Position numbers and translations under genes: made by a program. Source: Lysobacterales bacterium (lineage in GTDB: Bacteria > Pseudomonadota > Gammaproteobacteria > Xanthomonadales > SZUA-36). Taken from it: a DNA stretch of 46,554 bases. Position 1 is the stretch's first letter, and the number at the start of each line of letters is the position of its first letter. The stretch is from the NCBI GenBank assembly GCA_013042915.1, contig JABDPF010000036.1, positions 1 to 46,554 on the forward strand, given 5' to 3'. A model generated the notes under the pieces. The model searched no databases, was not told the origin of the DNA, and was given only the letters and a program-made list of their open reading frames with translations. This document shows positions 3,487-43,357 of this stretch, in pieces.

Positions 3487-3975
3487 TCAGACGTGTTCGA
3501 ACCGGTTCGCGCGGACGTTCTTGCGCACTTCCCCGGGCAACCAGACGGTGCCGTTCATCGCGATGTACACGCCCGGCTGCAGGGACTGGACGGCGCCGAT
3601 GGCGCAGCCGATGTTGAACACGGCGTCCGAGTCCCTGAAGCGGGCCGGGTTGAGCGCCCCGGTCATCACGATGGTTTTGTCTTCGATGCCCTCCAGAGCA
3701 TCGGCGGTCACCTTCATCGTGTCGGTGCCGTGGGTGATCAGGATGTGGCTGCAGTTCGAAGCGTCGACGATCGCGCGGATCAGGGCGCGGTCCTTGTCGG
3801 TCAGATGGAGGCTGTCCTTGCGCATCAGCGCGGTGACCTCGAATTCAAAGGCGACGTGCATGGCGTGCAGGATCTGGCTGATTTGCGGTTCACCAATCTG
3901 GTAATCGCTCTTGTCATCGAAGTAAATCTTGTCGATGGTGCCGCCGGTGGTAATGATGAGCAGTTTCGAGATCAT
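3487..3975 (-). CDS. Single-domain asparaginase-like protein
   Basis: The 162-residue product matches the N-terminal catalytic domain of type I/II asparaginases, which hydrolyse asparagine to aspartate and ammonia. Both catalytic signatures are present: TTGGTID near residues 9-15 (nucleophilic Thr10) and HGTDTM at residues 82-87 (Thr84-Asp85). Classical enzymes are about 330 residues with a second domain completing the active site; here that domain is absent without any sign of a frameshift. Such short forms recur in proteobacteria, and whether they are active asparaginases is uncertain. The ATG at 3975 was preferred to upstream in-frame ATGs because the conserved strand begins there. The gene converges with the DUF445 gene and diverges from the large gene at 4021. 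Confidence 0.75.
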   Translation of the reverse strand: MISKLLIITTGGTIDKIYFDDKSDYQIGEPQISQILHAMHVAFEFEVTALMRKDSLHLTDKDRALIRAIVDASNCSHILITHGTDTMKVTADALEGIEDKTIVMTGALNPARFRDSDAVFNIGCAIGAVQSLQPGVYIAMNGTVWLPGEVRKNVRANRFEHV

Positions 3976-4020
3976 TCGCGTAGTATATCGTGGCATTGTC
4001 GGCATGAAGACAGCAACCAT

Positions 4021-7000
4021 ATGGGTGTGATCAACGCCGTTTCCAACTCACTGGCCTCACGCGTGTTCCGGGTAGTTCTCCTGGGCCTGCTGCTGTCGCC
4101 TTATGCCGTCATGGGCTCGCAAGACATCGCCGACGAACTGGGCGTGCCCGGCACCCGTCAGCTGGCCGCTGCGCTGGCCGACCCCGGGTCCCGCGTCGAT
4201 ACCCTGCTGACGATGGCGGTCGTGCTCAACTTGTCTGATTACGGGCGTTATGCCCGGCTCGACCAGGTAGCGGCCTACACCGCGCGCTTCGGTGATGAGC
4301 GGGCCTGGCTGGACAAACTGGCGGACCGCTACGGCACCGTGCCGTTTCGCAGCTCGCTGTTGGACCCGTCCGCGTGGTTGTTGCTGGTTGAGCTCGATCA
4401 ATACGACCTTTCTCCCGGCCCGGCGGTTTCGCCCTTCGGTCCGGGCACGCGCGGCTTGTTGGCGAACCTGTTCGATCGGTCCAATGCCGTCAAGGCGGCC
4501 ACGGTGCTACCCGAAGTGCTCTCCCGACTCGAGGTTCGCTCCACCGTGATTTGGGAGGAGTTGCTCAGGGCCGCGGCGGAAAACGCGGGCCTGGCGGCGG
4601 TGCTCTCGTCTCTCAACGAAGAGTGGTTTGACCCGTGGGCCGCAGCGGAACCCCCGGCGCCGACCGGCCTGGAAAGGCAGGAGTATGTGGCCGAAGCGCT
4701 CGCGCTGCTTCGAGACGGTGCGCTCATGGCGCAGCACGCGGGTCCACCCGATGAATTGGATCTCAAACGCGTGCGGTTCGGTCTGCTGGATGCCATGCCG
4801 GGCCTGAGTTGGCAGGAGTCCGACGATGCGGTGTACCTGCTGAAAATCGCCGACGCGGTGGAAGGGCTTTACCGTGAACACTACCTGGCCTTTACAGAGG
4901 CGCTGTTGTGGGTGTCGGCCGGCCTGTTGGCCTCAGAGGTGCCGCACATTATCGAGGCGGAGGAGGAGGCCGAGCCGAGTCCGTTTTCGCCGCCACCCGA
5001 AATCGTGCTCGAGCTGCTGCCCGGAGAACCGGTTAAGCCGCCGCCTATCGAACCCTACCGCTCCCCGGTTCCGGCTGCGCTCGCCGAGGTTTTGCCCGCG
5101 CTGGCTAGCGCGTTCACCCGGGACCTGGAACGGGTTGACCCGCGCCTGAACGAGGTCCTGGCCGTGGCGTTCGATGCCGTGCAATACATCGATTCCGGTC
5201 TCGGCGATCCGGATCAGCTCGCCTCGCTTCGATACACGATCGCCGACAGTGTGGCCCAGCTGGTGCTGCTGATCCCCGACATGGATTACTACTTTTCGCA
5301 ACCGGTCCGCCTGGACATCGCGAACAAGATCAACATCTGCATCAGCCGTGCGTCCCGGCGAAACCCCGGGGGCAGCCCGGCGCTCGAGCAGGAAGAATTC
5401 GACGATTGCCTGGAGGACCTGGTGGTCATGGCCTCGACACTGGTCGATTCCGCCGAGCTGGCGGGCGACCTGGACGGTCCGTTCGCGATGGAGCAACTTC
5501 GACGCGAGCTGGAACTGCCGCCCTGGCAGCGCATCAACTACGTGATGGGGTATCTTCTCGAGCGGTACGACACCAGCTGCAGCCCCCCCGAAGAAGCTCT
5601 GCCGAACCCCCTGGAGTGGTCCAGCCTGGTGGCGGTCATCACCTGGTTTGCTCGCCAGTCGCCCGTCCATTTCCGCCAGCCCCGGAACGAGGCCCTGGTG
5701 GCGAATCTGCGGCAACAGGGTCTCGACTTGCTCGAAGAGCTCAATCGGCAAGTCGACTGCATCGGCGGCGCGGGGGCCGGCGTCAACGACCCGGTGGCGC
5801 GCGGTCTCTCCGATTACGCGGAGGCGCTGGACATGCTGATCGCCAATGTGCGTGAGGAAGAACTGGCATTCCGGACCGAGCGCCTGCAGGCTGGCGCCGA
5901 CGTGGTCTTGAATGGCGGCGCCGGTCAGCGAACCGCGTACCGACCGGAGGACCTTGCGATCGGGCCGTGCAACCCGGAAAACGTCTGCGAAATGACCGCG
6001 GAACTTGCGGCTGGCCCCGAATTGCTGGCCTTGTTTCCGGACCCTTACCTGCTGGCCGACCAATCAGGCCTGGGAACCGTCCGTATCTGCTACGACAAGG
6101 TGCAATGGGTCGACCGGCGTTCTAAGCGGGTGCGCGAGGACGACCCCCACGTTGCAAATTACCACGGGCGACTCAGCTTCAAACTCCTTGGCGTCTATAC
6201 CGAGGCTGAAGAGACCAGCACGGTGTTCGGTTTTGACTTCCTGAGCCCGGAGGAATACCACTACCTGTTCGGCCCCGCCACCGATGAGGTATTAAACGAC
6301 GGATGCCCCACCGAGTGGGTGGGCACCAAGATCGTCACCCCGCTGGGCAACCGCCAACCGATCCGCGTCGTGCCCGACCGCCTGACCTACCTGGCCGGCG
6401 CGCGCACGCTACCGACGGCCGTCATGGTGAAGAACTGGGAGCGCAACCAATCCTGGCGCAGCGCACTGGTGCGGGGACAGCTTGGCCAACGCATTCCAAT
6501 CGAGCCCGATGAGGGTTTCGAAGCCCGTCTCGAGCAACACCTGCAGGCCCTTTACCAGTCGAAACGCTCAGCGGTATACAGCGCCCTTCTCAACCCGCCC
6601 CCGCGAAGCTGGCGCGGCGGAGACAGTTCGTTGCACGGACAACTGCGGGAACTGTCTGCCTATAAAAAACTGGTCCAGGCGCACGTAAACCTGTTCTACC
6701 CGCTGACTTTGCTTGATTCTGAGGAGATTCGGGGGTTGCTCGAAGGCAGCGAGGCGCTACTGGACCAGGAGGTCATGCGTCGAATGCGTGGCCAGGGCGT
6801 CTCCGTGTCCGAGGTCTCTGCCCTGGGGCAGGCACGGCTGGGTTCGTTTGCGGCGGCCTGGTCCCGGAGGCCGGAGGTGGTTCGAAGAAGCGGTTCGGCG
6901 GCCGTCGGCCTGGTGCACGCGATCGTGCGCCTTGAGTCGCTTTACCGCGACTTCTTTGCCCCGCGCCCCCAGCCCCCGCCCAAGGCGGTCGGCCCGGATG

Positions 7001-7032
7001 ACGTTATCGACTTCGAGGCGTTGAGCGGCTGA
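4021..7032 (+). CDS. Large secreted protein of unknown function
   Basis: I do not recognise this 1003-residue protein. Residues 1-32 look like a signal peptide or signal anchor: a hydrophobic Val-Val-Leu-Leu-Gly-Leu-Leu-Leu core and a possible cleavage site near Met-Gly-Ser. The N-terminal third is Ala/Leu-rich and helical. A Pro/Glu-rich linker spans about residues 310-352, and a second long helical and mixed region contains scattered cysteines. The frame remains open upstream to 3493, but that part lies antisense to the asparaginase gene and lacks conserved features, so the ATG at 4021 is chosen. Its 3' end overlaps the convergent DUF2069 gene by 29 bases. Codon use resembles its neighbours, with no sign of recent transfer. 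Confidence 0.75.
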   Translation: MGVINAVSNSLASRVFRVVLLGLLLSPYAVMGSQDIADELGVPGTRQLAAALADPGSRVDTLLTMAVVLNLSDYGRYARLDQVAAYTARFGDERAWLDKLADRYGTVPFRSSLLDPSAWLLLVELDQYDLSPGPAVSPFGPGTRGLLANLFDRSNAVKAATVLPEVLSRLEVRSTVIWEELLRAAAENAGLAAVLSSLNEEWFDPWAAAEPPAPTGLERQEYVAEALALLRDGALMAQHAGPPDELDLKRVRFGLLDAMPGLSWQESDDAVYLLKIADAVEGLYREHYLAFTEALLWVSAGLLASEVPHIIEAEEEAEPSPFSPPPEIVLELLPGEPVKPPPIEPYRSPVPAALAEVLPALASAFTRDLERVDPRLNEVLAVAFDAVQYIDSGLGDPDQLASLRYTIADSVAQLVLLIPDMDYYFSQPVRLDIANKINICISRASRRNPGGSPALEQEEFDDCLEDLVVMASTLVDSAELAGDLDGPFAMEQLRRELELPPWQRINYVMGYLLERYDTSCSPPEEALPNPLEWSSLVAVITWFARQSPVHFRQPRNEALVANLRQQGLDLLEELNRQVDCIGGAGAGVNDPVARGLSDYAEALDMLIANVREEELAFRTERLQAGADVVLNGGAGQRTAYRPEDLAIGPCNPENVCEMTAELAAGPELLALFPDPYLLADQSGLGTVRICYDKVQWVDRRSKRVREDDPHVANYHGRLSFKLLGVYTEAEETSTVFGFDFLSPEEYHYLFGPATDEVLNDGCPTEWVGTKIVTPLGNRQPIRVVPDRLTYLAGARTLPTAVMVKNWERNQSWRSALVRGQLGQRIPIEPDEGFEARLEQHLQALYQSKRSAVYSALLNPPPRSWRGGDSSLHGQLRELSAYKKLVQAHVNLFYPLTLLDSEEIRGLLEGSEALLDQEVMRRMRGQGVSVSEVSALGQARLGSFAAAWSRRPEVVRRSGSAAVGLVHAIVRLESLYRDFFAPRPQPPPKAVGPDDVIDFEALSG

Positions 7033-31414: not shown

Positions 31415-32395
31415 TCAGCGACAACCGATGATGCCGTCGATCTCGGTCAACAGGTTCTCGCGGCAGATGTCGCCACGCACAAAAATTCTGGGAATTTCGT
31501 CGGGCACGGAGGCTTCCAGCGTTGCACGAACCGCCTCGAAGTCTTTCACATTTCGAATGTACACCTTGAGCACACCATTGTGATCGAGTTGGGCACGCGC
31601 CCCGCCCATCAGGCGCTGGCCCTCGCCTAGCAGGCTATCCACGTTGCGCAGCGATTCCCGCAGCTGGTTGGCTACCTGGTGTTCATGGTGGGTCTGGTGG
31701 CCGACGATACTGGCCGTTCCTGACAACAGGAACTGGCTCGATCCGTTCATTCGCAGGATCGTCGCGCGCGAAAACAGCGGGCTTCTCGGTCCGTAGCGGC
31801 GCGGGTAACGCCAGGCGCTGACCTGGCGCGGGTTCTCCACGTCGAGACCGGGCAGGGCGCCGGCCAGGAAGTAGACCTGCAGGCTCGCTTCTTCCAGCGG
31901 TGTGCCGATGCCGGTGGCGGCGGGCAGCGGCGGACCGTCGCCAGGATCGATCGAAACTGCTTCTGCCCGGCCCAGGCAGAACTGGCGATAGCGTTCCTCG
32001 TCGCCATCTCCCCGGTTGATACCCGGGATGTGGTTCCAGATCTTCAATGGCCACGGATGGGGAGATTGCTGCAGGTAGGATTGCAAAAGCTCGTACGCCA
32101 GCCGGCTGCATTCGCGCATGGTTCCGCACTGCTCCAGGTCGAGCGCGATGTGGCCCATCGTCAGCCATTCGCCCTGGGCGAACCGCAAGCCGTCCCAGCT
32201 GCCCGTTTTGACCGGGCCGTGGCTGCGCCAGACCTCCACCCGCGAGGGTTCATCGAGCTGGGTGAGCGCCACGGGGACATGGCGCGGGTCGGTCGATTCG
32301 AGTGGCGAGCGTCCGAATTCGAACACGGACAACACGTCCGGCTCGGCGACCCAATCGCCGGCTGCGCCTTCTTCGTAACTGACTTTGAGGATCAT
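31415..32395 (-). CDS. Chorismatase, XanB2/FkbO/Hyg5-like
   Basis: The 326-residue protein resembles chorismatases of the FkbO/Hyg5/XanB2 family, which remove pyruvate from chorismate to give hydroxybenzoates or dihydroxycyclohexadiene acids. The recognisable core is Ile-Trp-Asn-His-Ile-Pro-Gly-Ile-Asn followed by Glu-Glu-Arg-Tyr-Arg-Gln-Phe-Cys-Leu-Gly-Arg, with a C-terminal RidA-like half. In Xanthomonas, XanB2 supplies 3- and 4-hydroxybenzoate for pigment and ubiquinone; the product here cannot be predicted. The ATG at 32395 lies 14 bases after the synthetase stop; a TTG at 32413 is an alternative. It is last in the etf operon, an unusual place for this family. Confidence 0.75.
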   Translation of the reverse strand: MILKVSYEEGAAGDWVAEPDVLSVFEFGRSPLESTDPRHVPVALTQLDEPSRVEVWRSHGPVKTGSWDGLRFAQGEWLTMGHIALDLEQCGTMRECSRLAYELLQSYLQQSPHPWPLKIWNHIPGINRGDGDEERYRQFCLGRAEAVSIDPGDGPPLPAATGIGTPLEEASLQVYFLAGALPGLDVENPRQVSAWRYPRRYGPRSPLFSRATILRMNGSSQFLLSGTASIVGHQTHHEHQVANQLRESLRNVDSLLGEGQRLMGGARAQLDHNGVLKVYIRNVKDFEAVRATLEASVPDEIPRIFVRGDICRENLLTEIDGIIGCR

Positions 32396-32409
32396 CGTCC
32401 AGCGTCCGG

Positions 32410-34371
32410 TCAATGCCGCAATTGCGGCAGGTCCCGATACAGTTCCAGCGCGGAGGGGTTGGCCAGGGCGTCCTGGTTCGCCACCGGACGGCCATGAATC
32501 ACGTCGCGCACGGCCAGTTCCACGATCTTGCCGCTCAGGGTGCGCGGGATATCGGCGACCTGGATAATTTTCGCCGGCACGTGGCGGGGCGTGGTGTTTT
32601 CCCGAATAGCGCGGCGGATGCGGGCTTCCAGTGCCTCGTCCAGTAAAAGGCCCTCGCGCAGTTTCACGAACAGCACCACGCGCACGTCATCGTCCCAGTC
32701 CTGTCCCACGCAAATGCTTTCGATGACTTCGTTCAGAGCCTCCACCTGGCGATAGATTTCCGCCGTGCCGATGCGAACGCCGCCGGGGTTGAGGGTCGCG
32801 TCGGACCTGCCCTCGATGACGTAGCCGCCGGTTTCGGTCTTGCGGATGAAGTCGCCGTGCGCCCAGAAGCCGGGGTGTTTCTCGAAATAGGCGGCGTGGT
32901 ACTTTTCGTCGTTCTCGTCTCCCCAGAAGCCTATCGGCATGGCGGGGAAGGGCTGGCCGCAACACAGCTCGCCGGTTTCCCCAACATCCGCCTCGTTGCC
33001 GTCCTCGCGCAGCACGCGGACGTCCATAGCCAAGCCGGCGCACTGCAGCTCGCCGCGGTAAACCGGCAGCAGCGGGCAGCCGGGAAGGAAGCAGGACACG
33101 ATATCGCTGCCGCCCGCGATCGAAGACAGGCACAGGTTTTGCTTGATGTCCCGGTAGACGTAATCGAAGCTGTCCGGCGCCAGTGGTGAACCGGTGGACA
33201 GCAGGGTGACCAGGCTGTTGAGTTGGTGGGTCTCGCGCGGCACGAGGCCCGCTTTCTCCCAGGCCGCAATGGCCTTGGCCCCGACCCCGAGCATGGAGAT
33301 CCGGCATTCGTCCACCAGGTCGAACAGGGCCCCGGGCGCCGGATGGAACGGTGAGCCATCGTACAGCACCAATGCCGCCCCGGCGGCAAGGCCGCTGACC
33401 ATCCAGTTCCACATCATCCAGCCGGTGGTGGTGAAGTAGCACAGGCGGTCCTGCCTGCGCAGGTTGGTGTGCAGAACCAGTTCCTTGAGGTGCTGCAGCA
33501 GCGTACCCCCGGCCCCATGCGTCATGCACTTGGGGGCGCCGGTCGTGCCCGAGGAATACAGGATATAAACCGGGTGGTCGAACGGCAGGCGTTCGAACTC
33601 GACCTGCTCGGCGGCGTTGTCGGTGAATTCGCCGAAAACAACCGCGTTTCGAATTCCGTCAATCTGCGGATTTTCATCCGGGTAAGGAACGACCACAACG
33701 GTTTCGATAGATTCGATCGCCTCGACGATGCCGCGTACCTTGTCGAGATCGTTGTGCTGTTTGCCGCCGTACGGATGGGCTGCCGCGCAGAACAGGACCT
33801 TGGGCCCGATCTGGCCAAACCGCTCGGTGACGCCGTCGATGCCGAAATCGGGTGAGCAGGACGACCAGATTGCACCGATGCTGGTAGCCGCCAGCATGGC
33901 AATGACGGCCTCGGGCAGGTTGGGCAGGAAGCCCGCCACGCGGTCACCTGTCTCGACGCCGGCAAGGCGCAGCGCGGCGGCGGTTTTGGCAACCGCGAGA
34001 TACAGCTCATGGTAGCTGTATTGCGCCTGCTCTCCGTTCTCGGAACGGAACAGCAGCGCCGGCCGGTCGTCCCGGTGGCGCAGCAGGTTCTCGGCAAAAT
34101 TCAGCCGGGCTTCCGGAAACCAGCGAGCACCCGGGAAACGATCGAATCGTTCGACAACGGCGTTGCCGGGATGACCGACAACCTCGCAAAAATCCCACAC
34201 CGCCCGCCAGAACTGGCGGGGGTGCTCAATGGAAAACCGGTGGAGATCCGGGTATTGGTAGATGCTTGGATCCAACTCGCGCCGGGCGAGTTCCATGAAG
34301 CGCCGGATGTTGGCCGTCTGTCGACGGACCGGCCCCGGTGACCAGAGTGGTTCCTGGCCGTTCTCAGTCAA
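32410..34371 (-). CDS. Acetoacetyl-CoA synthetase
   Basis: The 653-residue ANL-superfamily ligase activates acetoacetate to acetoacetyl-CoA with ATP. The P-loop Ser-Ser-Gly-Thr-Thr-Gly-Ala-Pro-Lys is in the first half, the adenylate hinge region lies near [11 protein letters not shown], and the catalytic Lys is in Leu-Ser-Gly-Lys near the C terminus. The N-terminal Pro-Leu-Trp-Ser-Pro matches acetoacetyl-CoA synthetases. I choose the TTG at 34371, which overlaps the etfA end and has GGAA seven bases upstream; the ATG-based extension lies inside etfA. It would use acetoacetate from the nearby tyrosine pathway. Confidence 0.88.
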
Positions 34372-35302
34372 GCAGCTTTTCCATCTCGGGAATGGCCTTG
34401 AACAGGTCACCCACGAGCCCGATGTCGGCCACTTCAAAAATCGGTGCTTCCGGGTCCTTGTTCACTGCCACGATAGTGCCGGCATCCTTGATACCCGTCA
34501 GGTGCTGGATCGCGCCCGAGATGCCAAAGGCCATGTAAAGGTCCGGTGCGATGATCTTGCCGGTCTGGCCAACCTGCATGTCGTTTGGGCAGTAGCCCGC
34601 GTCCACCGCGGCCCGGGTGCCGCCGACACCGGCACCGATCCTGTCGGCGAAGTCATAGATCAGCTGGAACTGCTCTTCGCTGGCCAGCGCGCGCCCTCCG
34701 GACACGACGCGCGCGGCGCTCTGCAGGTCCGGGCGCTCGCCGCCCTCCACTTCCATGCCGACGAAACGGGTGTGGTCGTGGCCCTGGCCGCTGGCATCGA
34801 TTCCCTCGATTTCGGCCGAACCGCCGCCGCCCGCAGCCTTCCAACTGGCCGTGCGCACCGTACCCACGACCTTGGAGCCGTCGGGCGCGGCCACGTCGAT
34901 GATCGCGTTGCCGGCATAAACCGGACGCTTGAACGACGATGGACCCATCACTTCCATGATGTCGCTGACCTGGTTCACGCCCATCAACGCGGCGACGCGC
35001 GGCAGCAGGTCGCGGCCAAAGGTGGTTGAAGGAGCAAGGACGTGGCTGTAGTCGCCGGCAAGCGCGACCACCTCGTCGGCCCAATTTGCGGCCATTGGGT
35101 TCTCCAGGTGCGCGCCGCTCGTGGCGAGGACCTTTGAAACGCCGTCGAGAGCGGCAGCCTGCGCGGCCACGGTGTCGACCTCGTGGCCGATGACCATGAC
35201 GTGTACCTCGCCGCCGATGGCGGCAGCACAGCTCACCGTCTTGGCCGTGCTGAGGTTCAGCGAGTTGCCGTCATGTTCGGCGATAACCAGTACCTTGCTC
35301 AT
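34364..35302 (-). CDS. etfA: Electron transfer flavoprotein, alpha subunit
   Basis: The 312-residue FAD-binding subunit carries electrons from acyl-CoA and other dehydrogenases to ETF-ubiquinone oxidoreductase. The C-terminal FAD signature includes His-Leu-Thr-Gly-Ile, Ile-Val-Ala-Val-Asn-Lys-Asp and [12 protein letters not shown]. It overlaps etfB by four bases and the following synthetase by eight. Confidence 0.97.
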
Positions 35303-37996: not shown

Positions 37997-39826
37997 TCAG
38001 CGATCCACGTCCCGGCTTTTCATCCAGGCCGGCAGCTCCGACATCGCGTGCTCGTAGCCTGCCTCGACAATGGCGTCGAACGATTTCACCTCGGTCATGC
38101 CAAAGTGCCGCACTTGAGGTTGCAGCAGCAGGTCGGCCTGGCGGCCGAGATCGCGCACGTGGCTCAGGGTGCCCAACTCGGTGGCCTTGAGCATCACGGT
38201 GGAAAACCCCGGAACGCGGTACTTCGGTGAAAAGGGCAAGTAGCGCCCGCGCAAAACCGCCCAGGGCGAAGGGGTTTCCGGGTAGTCGACTTCAACACGC
38301 CGGTGCGATGAAAGGTCCACTGCAACGATGTTTCCAACCGGCTTGCGCTGCATGATGTCGACGGGCAGGTTGTTGCTCACCGCGCCGTCGACGGCCAGGC
38401 GGCGGTCGACCACCGCGGGCGGAAGGATTCCCGGAATCGATGCGCCCGCGCGGACGGCGTCACCGAGATGGCCGCGCTCGTGCACTTTTACCTCGCCGGT
38501 GTCCAGGTGGCAGGACAGGCAGAAAAACGGTGTTTGCAGACCCTCGATCGGGAAGTCGAAGTGCTCGTGGATCAGTCGCGCCATACGCCGGCCGCGGATC
38601 AGCGAGATCAGCGGCAGGGTAAAGTCGCTGAACGGCTTGCCGGCGACGAAGCACTCGCGCGCTCGCTCGATCGCCTCGTCGGTGCTCCAGTGCGCGGCCA
38701 GGGCGGCGCCCATGATGCCGCCAATGCTGGTGCCGCCGATCCAGTCGACCGGCAGGGCAAGCTCTTCCATCGCGCGATAGACCCCGAGGTGTGCGAATCC
38801 GCGCGCCGCGCCTCCGGCCAGCACGAGGCCCAGCGCGTTGCCGGTTACGATGCGGGTGACGCGGTCGGTGTCCTCGGGATGATCGCGCCGCACATGCACG
38901 TGGAAGTCGAGTTCACGGTCCTCCAGCCATTGCGGTGTCGTATCGTACGGCCCCTCACCGGGGTGCAGCAGCACCAGCAGGCGGCGGGCGATGGCGGCCC
39001 CCGCGTCGCTGAGTACTTCGGCTTCCCAACGGCGGACCTGTGGATTACCGCTACCGTCGGCCACCAGCAGAACCATGTCGGATTGCCGCAGGGCGAATCG
39101 CGTCCAGGCCGGGTGGTCGGCGTGGCACTGGAACAGCACGAAGCGGTGCTCGTCCTCTTTTTCGTGGAACCAGTCCGCCAGCGTGTCCGGTATTTCCTCC
39201 TTGCCAGTCACGTCGGTCACCGGGGCGCCCAGCTCGGCGAGGCGTTCGGGCGAGAGCAAGAGCGTCTGGCCAGGCTCGGACATGGTTTCGGCGAGGCGAC
39301 GGCAGAGGCCGAACGTCCGGGCCCCGTCGTCCAGGTTGAGGATCGTAATGGCCTGCAGATTGCGGGTGGTGGCCGCGGCGCGCGAATGGCGATTCTGCAG
39401 CAGGTTGGCGACGTTACCGGCCAGTTTTAGCCCCAGTGACGGAAATTGCATGACCAGGGTTTCAAAGGTCTGCCGATCGATCGAAACCAACAGGCTGTCC
39501 CGGATGGCCTGGACACCTACCGTGCGCGGCGCGCCGGTCAACAGGCTGAGTTCACCCACGCTGTCACCGGCCACGATCTCGTTCAGAAAGGTGCCTCGGT
39601 TACGGCCGTCGGCTCCAGCGGCCCACGCCTGCAGGCGTCCGCGCACTAGGAAGTAGAGCGCGTCGCCCTCGTCGCCCTGTTGCATCAGCCAGTCGCCGCC
39701 GTTCAGATGCAGCATGCCGATCTGCTCAAGCAACGGGTGATCCGCGCCGATCGGAATGCCGAAATAACGCTCCAGCGTTTCGCGCACACGGCGGTCGCGG
39801 GCGCTAACGTGCGGGGCGACCGTCAC
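37997..39826 (-). CDS. Patatin-like phospholipase with cyclic-nucleotide-binding domain
   Basis: The 609-residue protein joins two modules like eukaryotic neuropathy-target esterase. Residues about 25-130 form a cNMP-binding domain with the phosphate cassette GELSLLTGAPR (Gly91, Glu92, Arg101). Residues about 330-530 form a patatin lipase: oxyanion motif GGAARG (338-343), nucleophile Ser367 in GTSIG, and Asp480 in Val-Asp-Gly-Ala. A middle region of about 200 residues resembles the linker of bacterial NTE-like proteins. It probably cleaves phospholipid acyl chains under nucleotide control. Its start overlaps the ABC ATPase stop by four bases, so it is coupled to the exporter genes. Confidence 0.88.
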   Translation of the reverse strand: MTVAPHVSARDRRVRETLERYFGIPIGADHPLLEQIGMLHLNGGDWLMQQGDEGDALYFLVRGRLQAWAAGADGRNRGTFLNEIVAGDSVGELSLLTGAPRTVGVQAIRDSLLVSIDRQTFETLVMQFPSLGLKLAGNVANLLQNRHSRAAATTRNLQAITILNLDDGARTFGLCRRLAETMSEPGQTLLLSPERLAELGAPVTDVTGKEEIPDTLADWFHEKEDEHRFVLFQCHADHPAWTRFALRQSDMVLLVADGSGNPQVRRWEAEVLSDAGAAIARRLLVLLHPGEGPYDTTPQWLEDRELDFHVHVRRDHPEDTDRVTRIVTGNALGLVLAGGAARGFAHLGVYRAMEELALPVDWIGGTSIGGIMGAALAAHWSTDEAIERARECFVAGKPFSDFTLPLISLIRGRRMARLIHEHFDFPIEGLQTPFFCLSCHLDTGEVKVHERGHLGDAVRAGASIPGILPPAVVDRRLAVDGAVSNNLPVDIMQRKPVGNIVAVDLSSHRRVEVDYPETPSPWAVLRGRYLPFSPKYRVPGFSTVMLKATELGTLSHVRDLGRQADLLLQPQVRHFGMTEVKSFDAIVEAGYEHAMSELPAWMKSRDVDR

Positions 39827-41145
39827 TTCAAATCCCTCTCGCGCATGTCGAGCTGGGTTTCCAAAATCACGCCGATCGAGCGAATGAAGGAGGCAAAACG
39901 GCCCTCGTCATGTCTGTCGAAGGGTTGGCCATCCTTGCGGTTTAACAGCTGTGCGACCGCGAATACCCGGCCTTCCTGGTCTTTGATGGGCAGGCTCAAT
40001 AGGGCGCGCGTGGTGTAACCCGTCTGGCGGTCCACCTCGCGGTTGAAGCGGGGATCGGCGTACGCATCGTCGATGCGCAGCGCCTCGCCGCTTTGCGCTG
40101 CCGCGCCGGCGATTCCGCTTCCGACCGGGATTCGAATCTCGCCCATCTCGTCCAGCTTGTCGGCCACCTTCAGCACCAATTCGTCATCCTCGACCAGGAA
40201 CAGCGAGGCGCGGTCGGCGTTGAGCAGCGAGGCCAGCTTGTGGGTGAAGGCGAACAGGCCGCGCTCGAGCATGCTGCGAAACGCCACGTTGTTGGCCAGG
40301 GCGGTGGCCTCCAGAAAGCGCTGCGACTCGTCGGTGATGTCCTGCAGCAGGTCTTCGAACTCTTCCTCGTCCAGTCCCTCGACGACCTCGTCGATCGGTT
40401 GCTTGTGACGGTTGTCGGCCAGCATCTGCATCATGTGGCGGTTGTTGGCGATCACCGCGTCGGTAAAGGTGCTCAGATGGCCGTCCTCCAGGTGCACGAT
40501 GCGATCGGCGATGTCGAGGATTCGGTTGTCGTGGGTGACCAGCAGGATGGGCGTGCCGTGTTCTCGGGCCAGGAATTTCATCCGGTCCACCACTTCGCGG
40601 CCGGACTGCTTGTCCAGTGAGGCGGTCGGTTCGTCCGCCATCACGATGGCCGGTTCCGCGGCCAGGGCGCGGGCGATGGCCACGCGCTGGCGCTGACCGC
40701 CGGACAACTGGTCGGGGCGGTGGTCGAGTCGCTCGCCCATGCCCACCGCGTTCAGCATCTCGCGCGCCCGCTTGCGGTGCTGCGTTTTGGGGTATTTGCC
40801 GCTGGCCCGCACGCCTAGTTCCACGTTCTGCAGCGCGGTCAGCGCGCCCAGCAGGTTGTGCTGCTGAAAAATAAAACCGATCTGGCGGCGAACTTTTTCC
40901 AGCGTGGCCGGCTTCGCGCCGTTCAATTCCTCGCCCAGGATCGTCACGCTGCCTTCCTGGGCCGAGCGCAGCGCGCCGACCAGGGTCAGTAAGGTGGTTT
41001 TGCCCGAACCCGAAGGTCCGGTGACGATGACGATCTCCCCCGGGTCGATTTCCACCGACACACCGAACAGGATCTGCTTGCGCAAATCCCCCTTGCCGTA
41101 GGCGTGGTTCAGGTCCTGCACGACGATCGGTGACACGCTGGCCAT
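39823..41145 (-). CDS. DevA-type ABC ATPase fused to a GAF domain
   Basis: The 440-residue protein begins with a MacB/LolD/DevA-class ATPase: Walker A GPSGSGKTT (43-51), signature LSGGQRQ (147-153), Walker B Ile-Val-Met-Ala-Asp-Glu-Pro (167-173). Such ATPases normally end near residue 240. Here a linker and a GAF domain (about 275-430) follow. It ends with Asn402-Arg403, Phe409, Asp413-Glu414, matching the NKXnFX3DE motif of cyclic-nucleotide-binding GAF domains except Lys to Arg. The ATG at 41145 shares one base with the permease stop (TAATG) and has GGAGG upstream. An ORF extension to 42000 lies inside the permease gene. Nucleotide gating of transport is inference. Confidence 0.9.
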   Translation of the reverse strand: MASVSPIVVQDLNHAYGKGDLRKQILFGVSVEIDPGEIVIVTGPSGSGKTTLLTLVGALRSAQEGSVTILGEELNGAKPATLEKVRRQIGFIFQQHNLLGALTALQNVELGVRASGKYPKTQHRKRAREMLNAVGMGERLDHRPDQLSGGQRQRVAIARALAAEPAIVMADEPTASLDKQSGREVVDRMKFLAREHGTPILLVTHDNRILDIADRIVHLEDGHLSTFTDAVIANNRHMMQMLADNRHKQPIDEVVEGLDEEEFEDLLQDITDESQRFLEATALANNVAFRSMLERGLFAFTHKLASLLNADRASLFLVEDDELVLKVADKLDEMGEIRIPVGSGIAGAAAQSGEALRIDDAYADPRFNREVDRQTGYTTRALLSLPIKDQEGRVFAVAQLLNRKDGQPFDRHDEGRFASFIRSIGVILETQLDMRERDLK

Positions 41146-42293
41146 TAGAACACCTCCGCGGGATCGAGGCGGCGTACCTTGCGCACGGCCAGCAGGCCGG
41201 AAATCGCGCACATCGTCAGCGTCAGAACGAACACGGTAACGGCGCGGTCGGTGGTGACGTACAGCGGTAGGTTGGTCGCGCCGGCTGCCTTTCCGTAAAG
41301 CCACCAGGCGACTCCCAGCCCGGGCAGGTAGCCCAGCACCGCCAGAATCGCCGCCTGCTGCAGCACGATGCCGGAGACGAAGCGGTTTTTGTAGCCGATC
41401 GCGCGCAGGGTGGCGTACTCGTTCAGGTGCTCCGATACGTCTGCAAAAAGGATCTGGTAAACGATGATCGCACCGACCACGAATCCCATGATCGCGCCGA
41501 AGGCGAAGATGTAGCCGATCGGCGTGGCGCCGTTCCAGTAGTTCTTTTCGCGCTGCACGAACTGGGTCTTGGTCATGACCAGCACGTCGTCTGGCAGGTA
41601 GGCGTCCATCGCGTCGCGCACCGCATCGGCGTTTTGTCCGTCGCGCAGGCGGATCAGCCCGAGGTGAATTTCGCTTCGTGGTTTGTTCGGGAACAGGCGC
41701 AGCCAGTTGTCGTCGCTGGTGAGAACGGTGCCGTCGATGCCGAACGAGGTGCCCATTTCGAACAGGCCGGCCACTTCCATCTCGCGGTCGTTGATCTCGG
41801 TGACCACGCTCTCGCCCGCCTCGATGGCCCCGGCCACGTCGCCGAATTCGGGCCGTGAGGCGCGGTCGAACAGCACCACGTCCTGCTGGCGCAAGCGTGC
41901 ACGCAAGGCGTCGAATCCAGGCAGTTGGAGCAGGGCGTCGTCGGGGTGAAAGCCGACGGTGTTGATGCTGCGCCGCTGGTTGTTCCAGGGGTTCTTCCAC
42001 ACCGAGGGAAAGATGTATACCGGTGTGGCGTCCTCAACGGCATCGTAACCCATCGCCTGGTACAGGCGGCGAATCGAAAATGATTGCGGGCGCACGATGA
42101 AGACGCTGTCCGGACTGAACAAGGCGATGTCGTAGTCGAAGCGCTCGTGGAAACGCACCGCGCTCTCGAACAACGCCGAGCGAAAACCCAGCTGCATCAT
42201 GATCAGCAGCACCGCGAAGGCGATGCCCGACAACGCCACCAGCAAGCGTAGCGGCTTGTGTTTAAGTTGCAGCCAGCCGAGCGGTGCGGTCAT
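41145..42293 (-). CDS. DevC-type ABC exporter permease
   Basis: The 382-residue permease has the FtsX/MacB layout: one N-terminal helix (about 14-36), a large periplasmic domain (about 40-255), then three helices to the C terminus. The Arg-Ala-Ile-Gly-Tyr-Lys coupling motif lies near residue 300. It matches DevC proteins that work with a membrane fusion protein and a DevA ATPase, both encoded on either side. The start overlaps the fusion-protein stop by four bases. Confidence 0.88.
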   Translation of the reverse strand: MTAPLGWLQLKHKPLRLLVALSGIAFAVLLIMMQLGFRSALFESAVRFHERFDYDIALFSPDSVFIVRPQSFSIRRLYQAMGYDAVEDATPVYIFPSVWKNPWNNQRRSINTVGFHPDDALLQLPGFDALRARLRQQDVVLFDRASRPEFGDVAGAIEAGESVVTEINDREMEVAGLFEMGTSFGIDGTVLTSDDNWLRLFPNKPRSEIHLGLIRLRDGQNADAVRDAMDAYLPDDVLVMTKTQFVQREKNYWNGATPIGYIFAFGAIMGFVVGAIIVYQILFADVSEHLNEYATLRAIGYKNRFVSGIVLQQAAILAVLGYLPGLGVAWWLYGKAAGATNLPLYVTTDRAVTVFVLTLTMCAISGLLAVRKVRRLDPAEVF

Positions 42294-43210
42294 AGGTGGA
42301 TCAAGACATCGACCTGCAGGTTGGTCAGGCGCGCCGCCGGCCGGGAATCCTCCAGCTCGATGACGACCTCCACGATGCGGGCGTCCTTGCGCGCGGCCGG
42401 GTCGGTTCCAATCTCGTCCTGTTTCTGGACTTTCTGGCGGATGCTTTTGACCTGGCCGCTGAGGTCGTTCTCGAAAGCCGGGCTTCGCACCGTCGCTATC
42501 TGGCCGATCTTGACGAAGCGGATGTCGCTTTCGTAAACCTCGGCGATCGCGTGCATGTGATCGACGCTGGCCAGTTCGAGCACGCCGGCCTCACCCATCA
42601 GTTCGCCGGGACGGACCAGGACTTCCAGTACCCGGCCGTCACGGGGTGCTCGGATATAGGCGCGCTGGAGTTCAGCTTCGACCCGGGCCAGGTGGGCCTG
42701 AGCTACTTGCACCTGGGTTTCGGTCAGCTGGATGGCGGTGGAAGCGGTCGCGCAGGACGCCTTTCGCGCATCGGCCTCACCCCGGGCTCCCTCGGCCTCT
42801 TCTTCACCGGCCAGGCCCCGCTCGAGCAGGTTTGAACGACGGACCGCTTCGCGTTCGGACACGTCGGCGCGGGTGCAGGTAGCCTGCGCCATGCTGCGCG
42901 CGGAGTCGACCTCGCGGCGGGCCCGCTCGACCTGCGCGCGCGCCTCGCTGACGATGGCCTCCATCACGGCGGCGGTGTCCGCGACCGCCAGCAGCTGACC
43001 CTGCTCGACGTCGTCGCCTTCTTCTACCCTTAACGCCGACAAAACGGCGCCGTAGGCGGCCTGCGGCGTGGAAGGGGAAGCGACGCGGATGATGCCGTGC
43101 TCCGGTTCAAGACGGCCCAGCGCGGAAATCGATTCGGGTGCATGGTTGTCGGCAATCGCGGCTTGACTGAAAAACAGCAGCGCCGTGAGGCACAGGTACC
43201 TGGCCTGCAT
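42290..43210 (-). CDS. DevB/HlyD-type periplasmic adaptor
   Basis: The 306-residue membrane fusion protein has an N-terminal signal (residues 1-20) and a split lipoyl-like domain. A long coiled-coil hairpin (about residues 75-185), rich in Ala, Glu and Arg, follows, then a beta-barrel region with Arg-Ala-Pro-Arg-Asp-Gly-Arg-Val-Leu. Such adaptors link inner-membrane permeases to TolC. In cyanobacteria DevBCA exports glycolipids; the cargo here is unknown. It is first in the four-gene unit that ends with the patatin gene. The 147 bases before it are shared with the divergent dusA. Confidence 0.85.
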   Translation of the reverse strand: MQARYLCLTALLFFSQAAIADNHAPESISALGRLEPEHGIIRVASPSTPQAAYGAVLSALRVEEGDDVEQGQLLAVADTAAVMEAIVSEARAQVERARREVDSARSMAQATCTRADVSEREAVRRSNLLERGLAGEEEAEGARGEADARKASCATASTAIQLTETQVQVAQAHLARVEAELQRAYIRAPRDGRVLEVLVRPGELMGEAGVLELASVDHMHAIAEVYESDIRFVKIGQIATVRSPAFENDLSGQVKSIRQKVQKQDEIGTDPAARKDARIVEVVIELEDSRPAARLTNLQVDVLIHL

Positions 43211-43357
43211 AGAAGAACTCCCTCGCCTGTCTCTGGTTTTTGTTTATCCGGGGAAACGCGGCTTGGCCGCTTCCCGTTGAAAATAAGAATAGCAGGCGTG
43301 GCCGCACGCGCACCAGTCGAAGTGTAAAAACAGGCAACCGCCCCCTAAACTGTTCCC

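Follow-up and report, generated by a model that had tools for sequence, protein, structure and literature searches.

Comparative genomics of a DevBCA-type exporter operon suggests shared cyclic-nucleotide control of its GAF-bearing ATPase and a cNMP-domain phospholipase

Our analysis of an operon in the window, a stretch of 46,554 nucleotides from a Lysobacterales bacterium (contig JABDPF010000036.1), suggests that one small signal molecule may control both a DevBCA-type exporter and the lipase encoded with it. On balance we favor the reading that cAMP or cGMP gates the two together, and it is somewhat better than an even bet that the ATPase and the lipase are under the control of the bound nucleotide. 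We favor shared cyclic-nucleotide control because of the gene linkage, the co-occurrence within the family and the conserved sensor motifs, and also because of the joint decay of both sensors in Paraglaciecola, the cyclase genes linked to the operon in six contigs and a second kind of DevA-sensor fusion. In the proposed scheme, a class III cyclase would raise cAMP or cGMP, which would bind both the GAF domain of DevA and the cNMP domain of the lipase. The bound GAF domain would alter the closure of two DevA subunits on ATP and gate export through DevBC and a TolC-like channel, the lipase would be released or restrained simultaneously, and export and turnover of membrane lipids would move together. 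The first-pass annotation had proposed such co-control of lipid export and phospholipid turnover in the envelope; the comparison backs this in part, for the shared control. What is known of bacterial cAMP and cGMP mostly concerns transcription factors, along with a small number of enzymes. If our reading is true, the paired sensors of one operon would let a second messenger bypass transcription and act on export at the envelope and on phospholipid turnover directly.

The operon consists of four minus-strand genes, each overlapping the next, by 4, 1 and 4 bases. devB (42290-43210) encodes a periplasmic adaptor (membrane fusion protein) of 306 aa (TIGR02971, HlyD_D23), devC (41145-42293) an FtsX/MacB-type permease of 382 aa (TIGR01185; FtsX, 1.1e-17), devA-GAF (39823-41145) an ATPase of 440 aa with a C-terminal GAF domain (TIGR02982; ABC_tran and GAF), and the last gene (37997-39826, GTG start) a patatin-like lipase of 609 aa with cNMP, NTE P-loop and patatin domains by Pfam. 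Both the coupling by overlaps of one to four bases and the four identities had been proposed from the sequence before, and both were borne out, the identities by TIGRFAM cut-offs and Pfam. The ATG of devA-GAF at 41145 is preceded by GGAGG; a longer start at 42000 in the ORF listing was rejected, as it falls within devC. The operon promoter is presumed to lie in the spacer read from the sequence at 43211-43357 (minus strand for the operon), which parts the operon from a divergent dihydrouridine synthase gene, and a sigma-70 consensus scan of this spacer gave no promoter site. A plasmid search gave partial matches only: contiguous coverage reached 80% of the operon in no record and was 20% at most (parts of devC and devA).

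Membership in the DevBCA family is indicated by all three subunits, which passed the curated cut-offs: 195.6 bits for DevB against TIGR02971 (cut-off 129), 467.3 bits for DevC against TIGR01185 (cut-off 290.35) and 334.2 bits for DevA against TIGR02982 (cut-off 295.8). The model of the DevA nucleotide-binding domain (NBD; residues 1-226, 40468-41145, minus strand) aligned to the NBDs of MJ0796, YbbA and MacB with Z of about 28-30. An exporter of the MacB superfamily (type VII), of the DevBCA kind, is the best reading of these sequences. The predicted structure of the whole DevA-GAF protein had a pTM of 0.51, so that the placement of the GAF domain relative to the ATPase is undefined in it. DevBCA-TolC/HgdD of Anabaena is the heterocyst glycolipid exporter. 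The present system resembles it in all three subunits but differs in the sensor domain on DevA, in the lipase in the operon and in the location of the OMF-type (TolC-like) genes, three of which are found in the window's genome, each on another contig. Moreover, the closest named relatives, in the top 80 of the 185 loci found, are gammaproteobacteria, not cyanobacteria. A lipid cargo is conceivable for this exporter, at slightly less than an even chance. If the gating is true, some non-cyanobacterial DevBCA exporters would gain a regulatory logic.

With regard to the sensor of DevA, Pfam placed a GAF domain behind ABC_tran at residues 298-426 (39868-40254, minus strand; E 3.7e-18), and a GAF domain was found behind DevA in loci L035-L075. 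The NKFDE-type motif, previously pointed out at residues 402-414, was confirmed by sequence and alignment (N402, R403, F409, D413 and E414; 39904-39942, minus strand), with a conservative departure of R403 for K. Among 42 of the 43 distinct DevA-GAF proteins (L038 was left out of the alignment), 36 have NRFDE and one has NKFDE, giving 37 of 42 together. A profile built from 30 of these 42 proteins, none of the four from Paraglaciecola among them, nor L062, found its best solved relatives in CyaB2 (5.2e-61), PDE2A (3.1e-46) and a cGMP-specific PDE (6.1e-46). When 369 genomes sampled from the class were searched and at most nine candidates scored in each, 13 of the 17 other profile matches (E<=1e-30; 15 other genomes) carried a class III cyclase domain, and the DevA-GAF fusion itself was met in the window's own genome only, so the fusion is rare. 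Judged by its sequence, the GAF domain of DevA is a member of the CyaB/PDE cyclic-nucleotide group. It shares the NKFDE-type motif with the tandem-GAF adenylyl cyclases CyaB1/CyaB2 and with PDE2/5/10, its closest relatives by profile, but here the GAF domain is single and its fusion partner is an ABC ATPase, where those proteins have a cyclase or PDE, and R stands for K.

According to the accessible part of one report, CyaB2 contacts the base of its nucleotide through R291, T293, I308, D356 and N359 (PMC4411481). The equivalents of the former four in DevA are R312 (R/K in 38/42 proteins), S314 (S/T in 38/42), V327 (V/I in 37/42) and D372 (42/42), while the fifth is T375, at a variable position. 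Thus, the fit of the pocket for a cyclic nucleotide, which had been left as a point to check, is favored at the sequence level by four of the five CyaB2 contacts and not by T375. Choosing between cAMP and cGMP from the pocket residues was also tried and gave no decision, because the GAF domain of the cGMP-specific PDE has the same key letters, as at Q399 and N368. It is quite probable that the two sensor domains bind a cyclic nucleotide.

The lipase carries cNMP_binding at residues 40-127 (39446-39709; PF00027, 1.7e-17), NTE_Ploop at 156-322 (38861-39361; PF24179, 1.3e-17) and Patatin at 334-491 (38354-38827; PF01734, 3.8e-21), all on the minus strand; the NTE P-loop domain, situated between the other two, was absent from the earlier description. 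The own-genome profile search matched the cNMP domain at the same place. Its phosphate-cassette residues Glu92 and Arg101, which the first-pass annotation had singled out, indeed lie within GELSLLTGAPRT and are conserved in 35/35 and 31/35 aligned lipases, respectively, the pair being kept in 31. The Ser-Asp dyad of the patatin domain (S367 and D480) is present in 35/35. The predicted structure (pLDDT 86.1, pTM 0.85) had PlpD as its top fold match (3.5e-18), and no hydrophobic export signal was seen by eye at the N-terminus. The best reading of this sequence is a putative cytoplasmic NTE-like phospholipase. It is similar to NTE-like patatin phospholipases in the order of cNMP, NTE P-loop and patatin domains and in the Ser/Asp residues, but has one cNMP domain and is encoded alongside an exporter.

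The four-gene linkage expected in related genomes was present in the neighborhood check: among DevA-GAF loci drawn from the best 80 of 185 loci, exporter and lipase are linked in 37 of the 40 with a view, the 41st stopping at a contig edge. DevA is without a seen GAF domain in 39 of the same 80. Two gene orders occur, devB-devC-devA-GAF-lipase (n=27) and lipase-devB-devC-devA-GAF (n=10), and no lipase is in view at L062, L065 and L067, the latter two being acidobacterial. Within the window's family (39 genomes sampled), the lipase (E<=1e-40) was found in 25/25 genomes with DevA-GAF versus 0/14 without it (Fisher 6.6e-11, which ignores descent). Lipase homologues of 33-38% identity are found in genomes of the same order without DevA-GAF. 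By these sequence comparisons, the linkage and the motif conservation are above chance. Four Paraglaciecola loci lost R312, N368 and T379 of the GAF domain. Gone with these are the motif residues N, K/R and E, as well as the cassette Arg of the lipase, while the operon itself is kept. As far as these sequences tell, the GAF and cNMP sensors decayed jointly in this one lineage. The lipase of the Paraglaciecola locus L068 has two cNMP Pfam stretches.

As a possible signal source, a class III cyclase gene is located upstream of devB in six contigs, and all five of these cyclases that could be typed have guanylyl-type residues. A histidine kinase gene and separate receiver genes accompany the cyclase in five of the six. 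In the genome of the window a single class III cyclase was found; it lies on another contig and looks adenylyl-type. Orthologues of the genome's own CHASE2 cyclase occur in 12/25 DevA-GAF genomes versus 0/14 others, a difference noticed post hoc, while class III cyclases of any kind are not enriched (20/25 versus 8/14, p 0.16). A genome-wide association of receiver-cyclases with DevA-GAF was rejected (5/25 versus 2/14); only their position adjoining the operon is unusual. A cyclase within 15 kb was seen in 3/25 genomes, where random placement expects 0.23 (P 0.0014), but the cut at 15 kb was chosen after the matches were seen, as were the genome sizes and the numbers of non-degenerate cyclases, both entered by hand. 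Class I adenylyl cyclase (PF01295), also considered as the source, was found in 0/39 genomes, the window's own included. In the accessible part of the report on Xanthomonas XC_0250/XC_0249, a class III cyclase gene of a cGMP pathway is similarly linked to a gene for a cNMP-domain effector, but there a diguanylate cyclase takes the place that an exporter or lipase has here, and XC_0250 is described with key residues other than the E-G pair (PMC3770947).

Bystander linkage, in which an efflux pump shares its operon by chance with a lipase of housekeeping function and the two are regulated separately, would agree with the same-order lipase homologues without DevA-GAF and with the three loci lacking a lipase in view (L062 and the acidobacterial L065 and L067). 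However, we rate it as highly improbable because the co-occurrence is 25/25 versus 0/14 and the genes stay linked in either of two orders. That both sensors decayed together in Paraglaciecola also speaks against it. A functional tie of another kind is known from E. coli YbbAP-TesA, where, according to the available portion of the report, a type VII ABC system is coupled with a lipid hydrolase, TesA, a periplasmic GDSL hydrolase bound to YbbP (PMC12646458). By analogy, the lipase may process a lipid handled by the exporter as an enzymatic partner, with the sensors being secondary. The tight exporter-lipase linkage and the presence of YbbA among the closest solved NBDs are in favor of this idea, but the lipase has no visible export signal and its sensor domains are of the cytoplasmic type. 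Moreover, an adaptor gene is present here. A patatin with its own sensor replaces the GDSL hydrolase, so that the system is not of the YbbAP-TesA type and at most works alike. We consider this partnership rather unlikely as the main explanation, and it is compatible with shared cyclic-nucleotide control, not exclusive of it. The words GAF, 'cyclic' and 'regulatory domain' appear nowhere in the text of that paper.

Another possibility is that the coupling is real but the sensors bind a different small molecule (e.g. ppGpp or a cyclic dinucleotide), or that the GAF domain merely dimerises DevA. The accessible part of a study of HetC of Nostoc, a peptidase-containing ABC exporter whose cNMP domain is required in vivo, reports that this domain bound ppGpp (Kd 59 micromolar), not cAMP (PMC10986499). 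This is the chief caution for our reading, since a ligand cannot be read off from what a domain is called. HetC is comparable to the present system as an ABC exporter carrying a cNMP-type domain, though its domain is N-terminal on another ABC class and that part of the report does not mention a lipase. The present system is not of the HetC type, as Pfam matched no peptidase family in it and its sensor is a C-terminal GAF. The change from K to R in the GAF motif and the persistence of the Paraglaciecola operon without binding motifs would also fit a different ligand. In contrast, the nearest GAF relatives are those of cyclases and PDEs, the Glu/Arg pair is kept in 31/35 lipases and 29/30 DevA-cNMP fusions, and six contigs have a cyclase gene linked to the operon; we therefore regard a different ligand as improbable, though by no means negligible.

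In a literature search with subscription papers and preprints outside its scope, no paper had DevBCA with 'GAF domain', and GAF domain, ATP-binding protein, ABC transporter and DevA never came together. Shared cyclic-nucleotide control may extend beyond the operon of the window: the chances seem evenly balanced that tripartite exporters gated by cyclic nucleotides form a class that recurs and is as yet undescribed, in which DevA gained a C-terminal sensor at the same site at least twice. The sensor would be a CyaB-type GAF domain in gammaproteobacteria and acidobacteria and a CRP/PKA-type cNMP domain in planctomycetes, and some gammaproteobacteria would encode the whole chain together, from histidine kinase and receivers through a receiver-controlled guanylyl-type cyclase to the gated exporter and the gated phospholipase. 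The existence of two kinds of fusion makes the idea testable using small purified domains. The planctomycete fusion is apparently a second, separate one by sequence: of the 196 genomes surrounding that of one planctomycete, 49 have, by coverage, a DevA joined to a canonical cNMP domain, and the Glu and Arg residues of this domain are kept in 29 of the 30 loci examined.

The source genome (2.69 Mb, 96% complete) carries four overlapping genes at 37997-43210 on the minus strand: devB, devC, a devA whose product ends in a GAF domain, and the gene of a patatin lipase. The nearest named loci, among the best 80 of 185 loci of the genome-collection scan, are metagenome bins titled Xanthomonadales or Lysobacterales. 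DevA, DevB and DevC each score above the curated NCBIfam cut-off, and the lipase consists of cNMP, NTE P-loop and patatin domains. Gene calls, families and domains confirmed the four-gene operon with GAF and cNMP domains that the first-pass annotation had described; the NTE P-loop domain is an addition to that description. AlphaFold2 modelled the lipase with confidence (pLDDT 86.1, pTM 0.85); among solved structures, this model matched the patatin PlpD best, then a CapV lipase and then CRP proteins, first among them the cAMP-bound CRP of M. tuberculosis. With regard to the DevA-GAF model (pLDDT 77.7, pTM 0.51), the ATPase part resembles MJ0796, YbbA and MacB (Z about 28-30), and in residues 286-438 the predicted helices and strands follow one another as we would expect for a GAF fold.

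In the best 80 loci kept from the 185 of the scan, 41 (L035-L075) have DevA with a GAF match. The order devB-devC-devA.GAF-lipase was found in 27 of these 41, some cut at contig edges, and lipase-devB-devC-devA.GAF in 10. Thus, the linkage in related genomes, set as a test in the first-pass annotation, is present at 37 loci in two gene orders. The lipase was not in view in three of the 41 (L062 and the acidobacterial L065 and L067), and one (L039) ends at a contig edge. At the remaining 39 of the best 80 loci, no GAF was seen behind DevA (a contig edge truncates L076), and none of these 39 has the three-domain lipase; one of them, L087, gave a single weak patatin match (24%). The cNMP match at the GAF-less locus L102 proved to fall inside DevA itself. 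Moreover, among 39 genomes sampled from the window's family, DevA-GAF is present in 25 and the lipase (E<=1e-40) in exactly the same 25, and some genomes without both are incomplete, down to 60%. The Fisher value for this co-occurrence (6.6e-11) ignores kinship and overstates the case, because relatives are not independent. The argument from two gene orders is free of this problem.

The nearest solved structures to the GAF profile are CyaB2, PDE2A and a cGMP-specific PDE (entry 3lfv), which we take to be PDE5. In a sample of 369 genomes of the class, the profile matched 17 distinct proteins in 15 other genomes (E<=1e-30); 13 of the 17 proteins have a class III cyclase domain, in 12 cases after two GAFs as in CyaB. 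No DevA match was found at the loci of these 17 proteins, so that in this class sample the DevA-GAF fusion is seen only in the window's own genome. The NKFDE motif is described as a mark of cyclic-nucleotide GAFs, and alanine at any motif position abolished cGMP binding of PDE2 GAF-B (PMC11977230). Across 42 DevA-GAF proteins, the motif reads NRFDE in 36, NKFDE in one and NRFDL in one, and four have lost N, K/R and E. Four of the five base contacts listed for the CyaB2 GAF (PMC4411481) are largely kept in the DevA-GAF alignment; the fifth, N359, is T375 in the window's GAF and varies among DevA-GAF proteins.

The phosphate cassette of the lipase retains Glu in 35/35 and Arg in 31/35 aligned lipases, and all four without Arg are from Paraglaciecola. 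The GAF domains at the same loci lack not only the motif N, K/R and E but also R312, N368 and T379, in alignment rows that are less certain at 23-24% identity to the window's GAF. Their lipase bears an extra N-terminal cNMP domain, whose cassette is absent by eye. A shared ligand would predict such loss of binding residues from two folds and two proteins in one lineage, and this joint decay counts as one event because only one lineage is involved. The operon is kept at these loci (L068, L070, L071 and L075) despite the decayed motifs, and the lipase N-terminus is longer.

A second, unexpected kind of fusion was found at L102, from a Planctomycetaceae bin, where DevA (L102:4380-5543, plus strand; TIGR02982, 349.1 bits) has a C-terminal cNMP domain (4.5e-22) with a canonical cassette; the same fusion is encoded at L200-L229, in this planctomycete genome and its relatives. 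In a search of 196 genomes around and including that of L102, 52 matched (E<=1e-65), and the match reaches the end of the cNMP domain in 49 of them. Cassette Glu and Arg are kept in 29/30 aligned loci, L102's own genome included. The GAF fold is unrelated to the cNMP fold; from these alignments, a cyclic-nucleotide sensor therefore appears to have been added to this end of DevA on at least two occasions. The parts are known, and their combination in the operon was not found in the literature searched. In addition, a third kind of tail, TerB-like (PF05099, 4.9e-11), is present in a DevA from a Haliea bin (L083:5995-7104, plus strand), and at L092, L093 and L103 DevA makes up the C-terminal end of open frames of 595-686 aa, possibly as DevC-DevA fusions.

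As a candidate signal source, a class III cyclase gene lies upstream of devB in six contigs: G007, G012 and G015, drawn from the 25 DevA-GAF family genomes, and L049, L054 and L073, from the 41 loci with flanks of <=6 kb (L072 and L044, taken as the G012 and G007 contigs, were not counted twice). Directly upstream of devB, G012, G015 and L049 each have genes for a receiver-cyclase, a histidine kinase and a stand-alone receiver, the receiver-cyclase being truncated by the contig end in L049. The linked cyclase of G007, L054 and L073 is a longer HisKA-like-receiver-cyclase, at a distance of about 10 kb in G007; genes for a kinase and a separate receiver accompany it in G007 and L073 and were not found within the flank in L054, a locus closely similar to L073. 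At the positions that choose the substrate, G007, G012 and G015 have E and G, as does the guanylyl cyclase Cya2; L054 and L073 have E and A, and A is another residue listed for guanylyl cyclases at the second position (PMC4215837). Receiver-cyclases occur in 5/25 DevA-GAF genomes and 2/14 others of the family, and any class III cyclase in 20/25 versus 8/14, which is not significant (p 0.16). The window's own genome has a single class III cyclase that passes the cut-off; this CHASE2 protein has K and T at the two positions, and we read it as adenylyl-type by analogy with class IIIb. Its orthologues (>=56% identity) are in 12/25 DevA-GAF genomes versus 0/14 others of the family (p 0.0026, post hoc and ignoring kinship). 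The apparently guanylyl-type linked cyclases suggest cGMP as the signal in some lineages, and the apparently adenylyl-type own cyclase suggests cAMP in that of the window; both sensors might accept either. About 5 kb from this CHASE2 cyclase, contig C53 encodes a membrane protein that looks by eye like a transporter and ends in a cNMP domain (L131:55-2136, plus strand). Another locus, L195, has a tandem-GAF class III cyclase frame with a weak match to the lipase cNMP domain (27.5%, 1.2e-10), and a single cyclase may combine both kinds of domain there.

Shared cyclic-nucleotide control of exporter and lipase, as proposed in the first-pass annotation, is thus partly supported: linkage, co-occurrence and kept motifs argue for it, and ligand binding is presumed from sequence. 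On the other hand, lipase homologues (33-38% identity) in genomes of the same order without DevA-GAF, the three DevA-GAF loci with no lipase in view and the rarity of the fusion in the class sample count against shared control. The R for K in the motif likewise speaks against a cyclic nucleotide, as does the precedent of HetC: this cNMP-bearing ABC exporter answers to ppGpp, not cAMP (PMC10986499), and so warns against assigning ligands by domain name. In type VII systems, the periplasmic part moves in step with the ATP-driven closure of two ATPases (PMC12646458, PMC5985334), and cyclic-nucleotide GAFs transmit binding via a terminal helix (PMC11977230). Under shared cyclic-nucleotide control, a nucleotide-holding GAF joined by helices to each DevA could help or hinder ATPase closure, and the cNMP domain of the lipase would switch that enzyme on or off. 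We infer a lipid cargo only from the known glycolipid export by DevBCA (PMC5985334) and from the lipase.

Elsewhere in the window, no Pfam (E<=1e-5) or NCBIfam (E<=0.01) family matches a 1179-codon frame (3493-7032, plus strand); its later portion resembles a long envelope protein. At 31415-34437 on the minus strand, a candidate FkbO/Hyg5-type chorismatase gene (TIGR04444, 208.8 bits, below the cut-off of 325) overlaps the gene of an AMP-binding enzyme by 4 bases, and its product resembles Xanthomonas XanB2.
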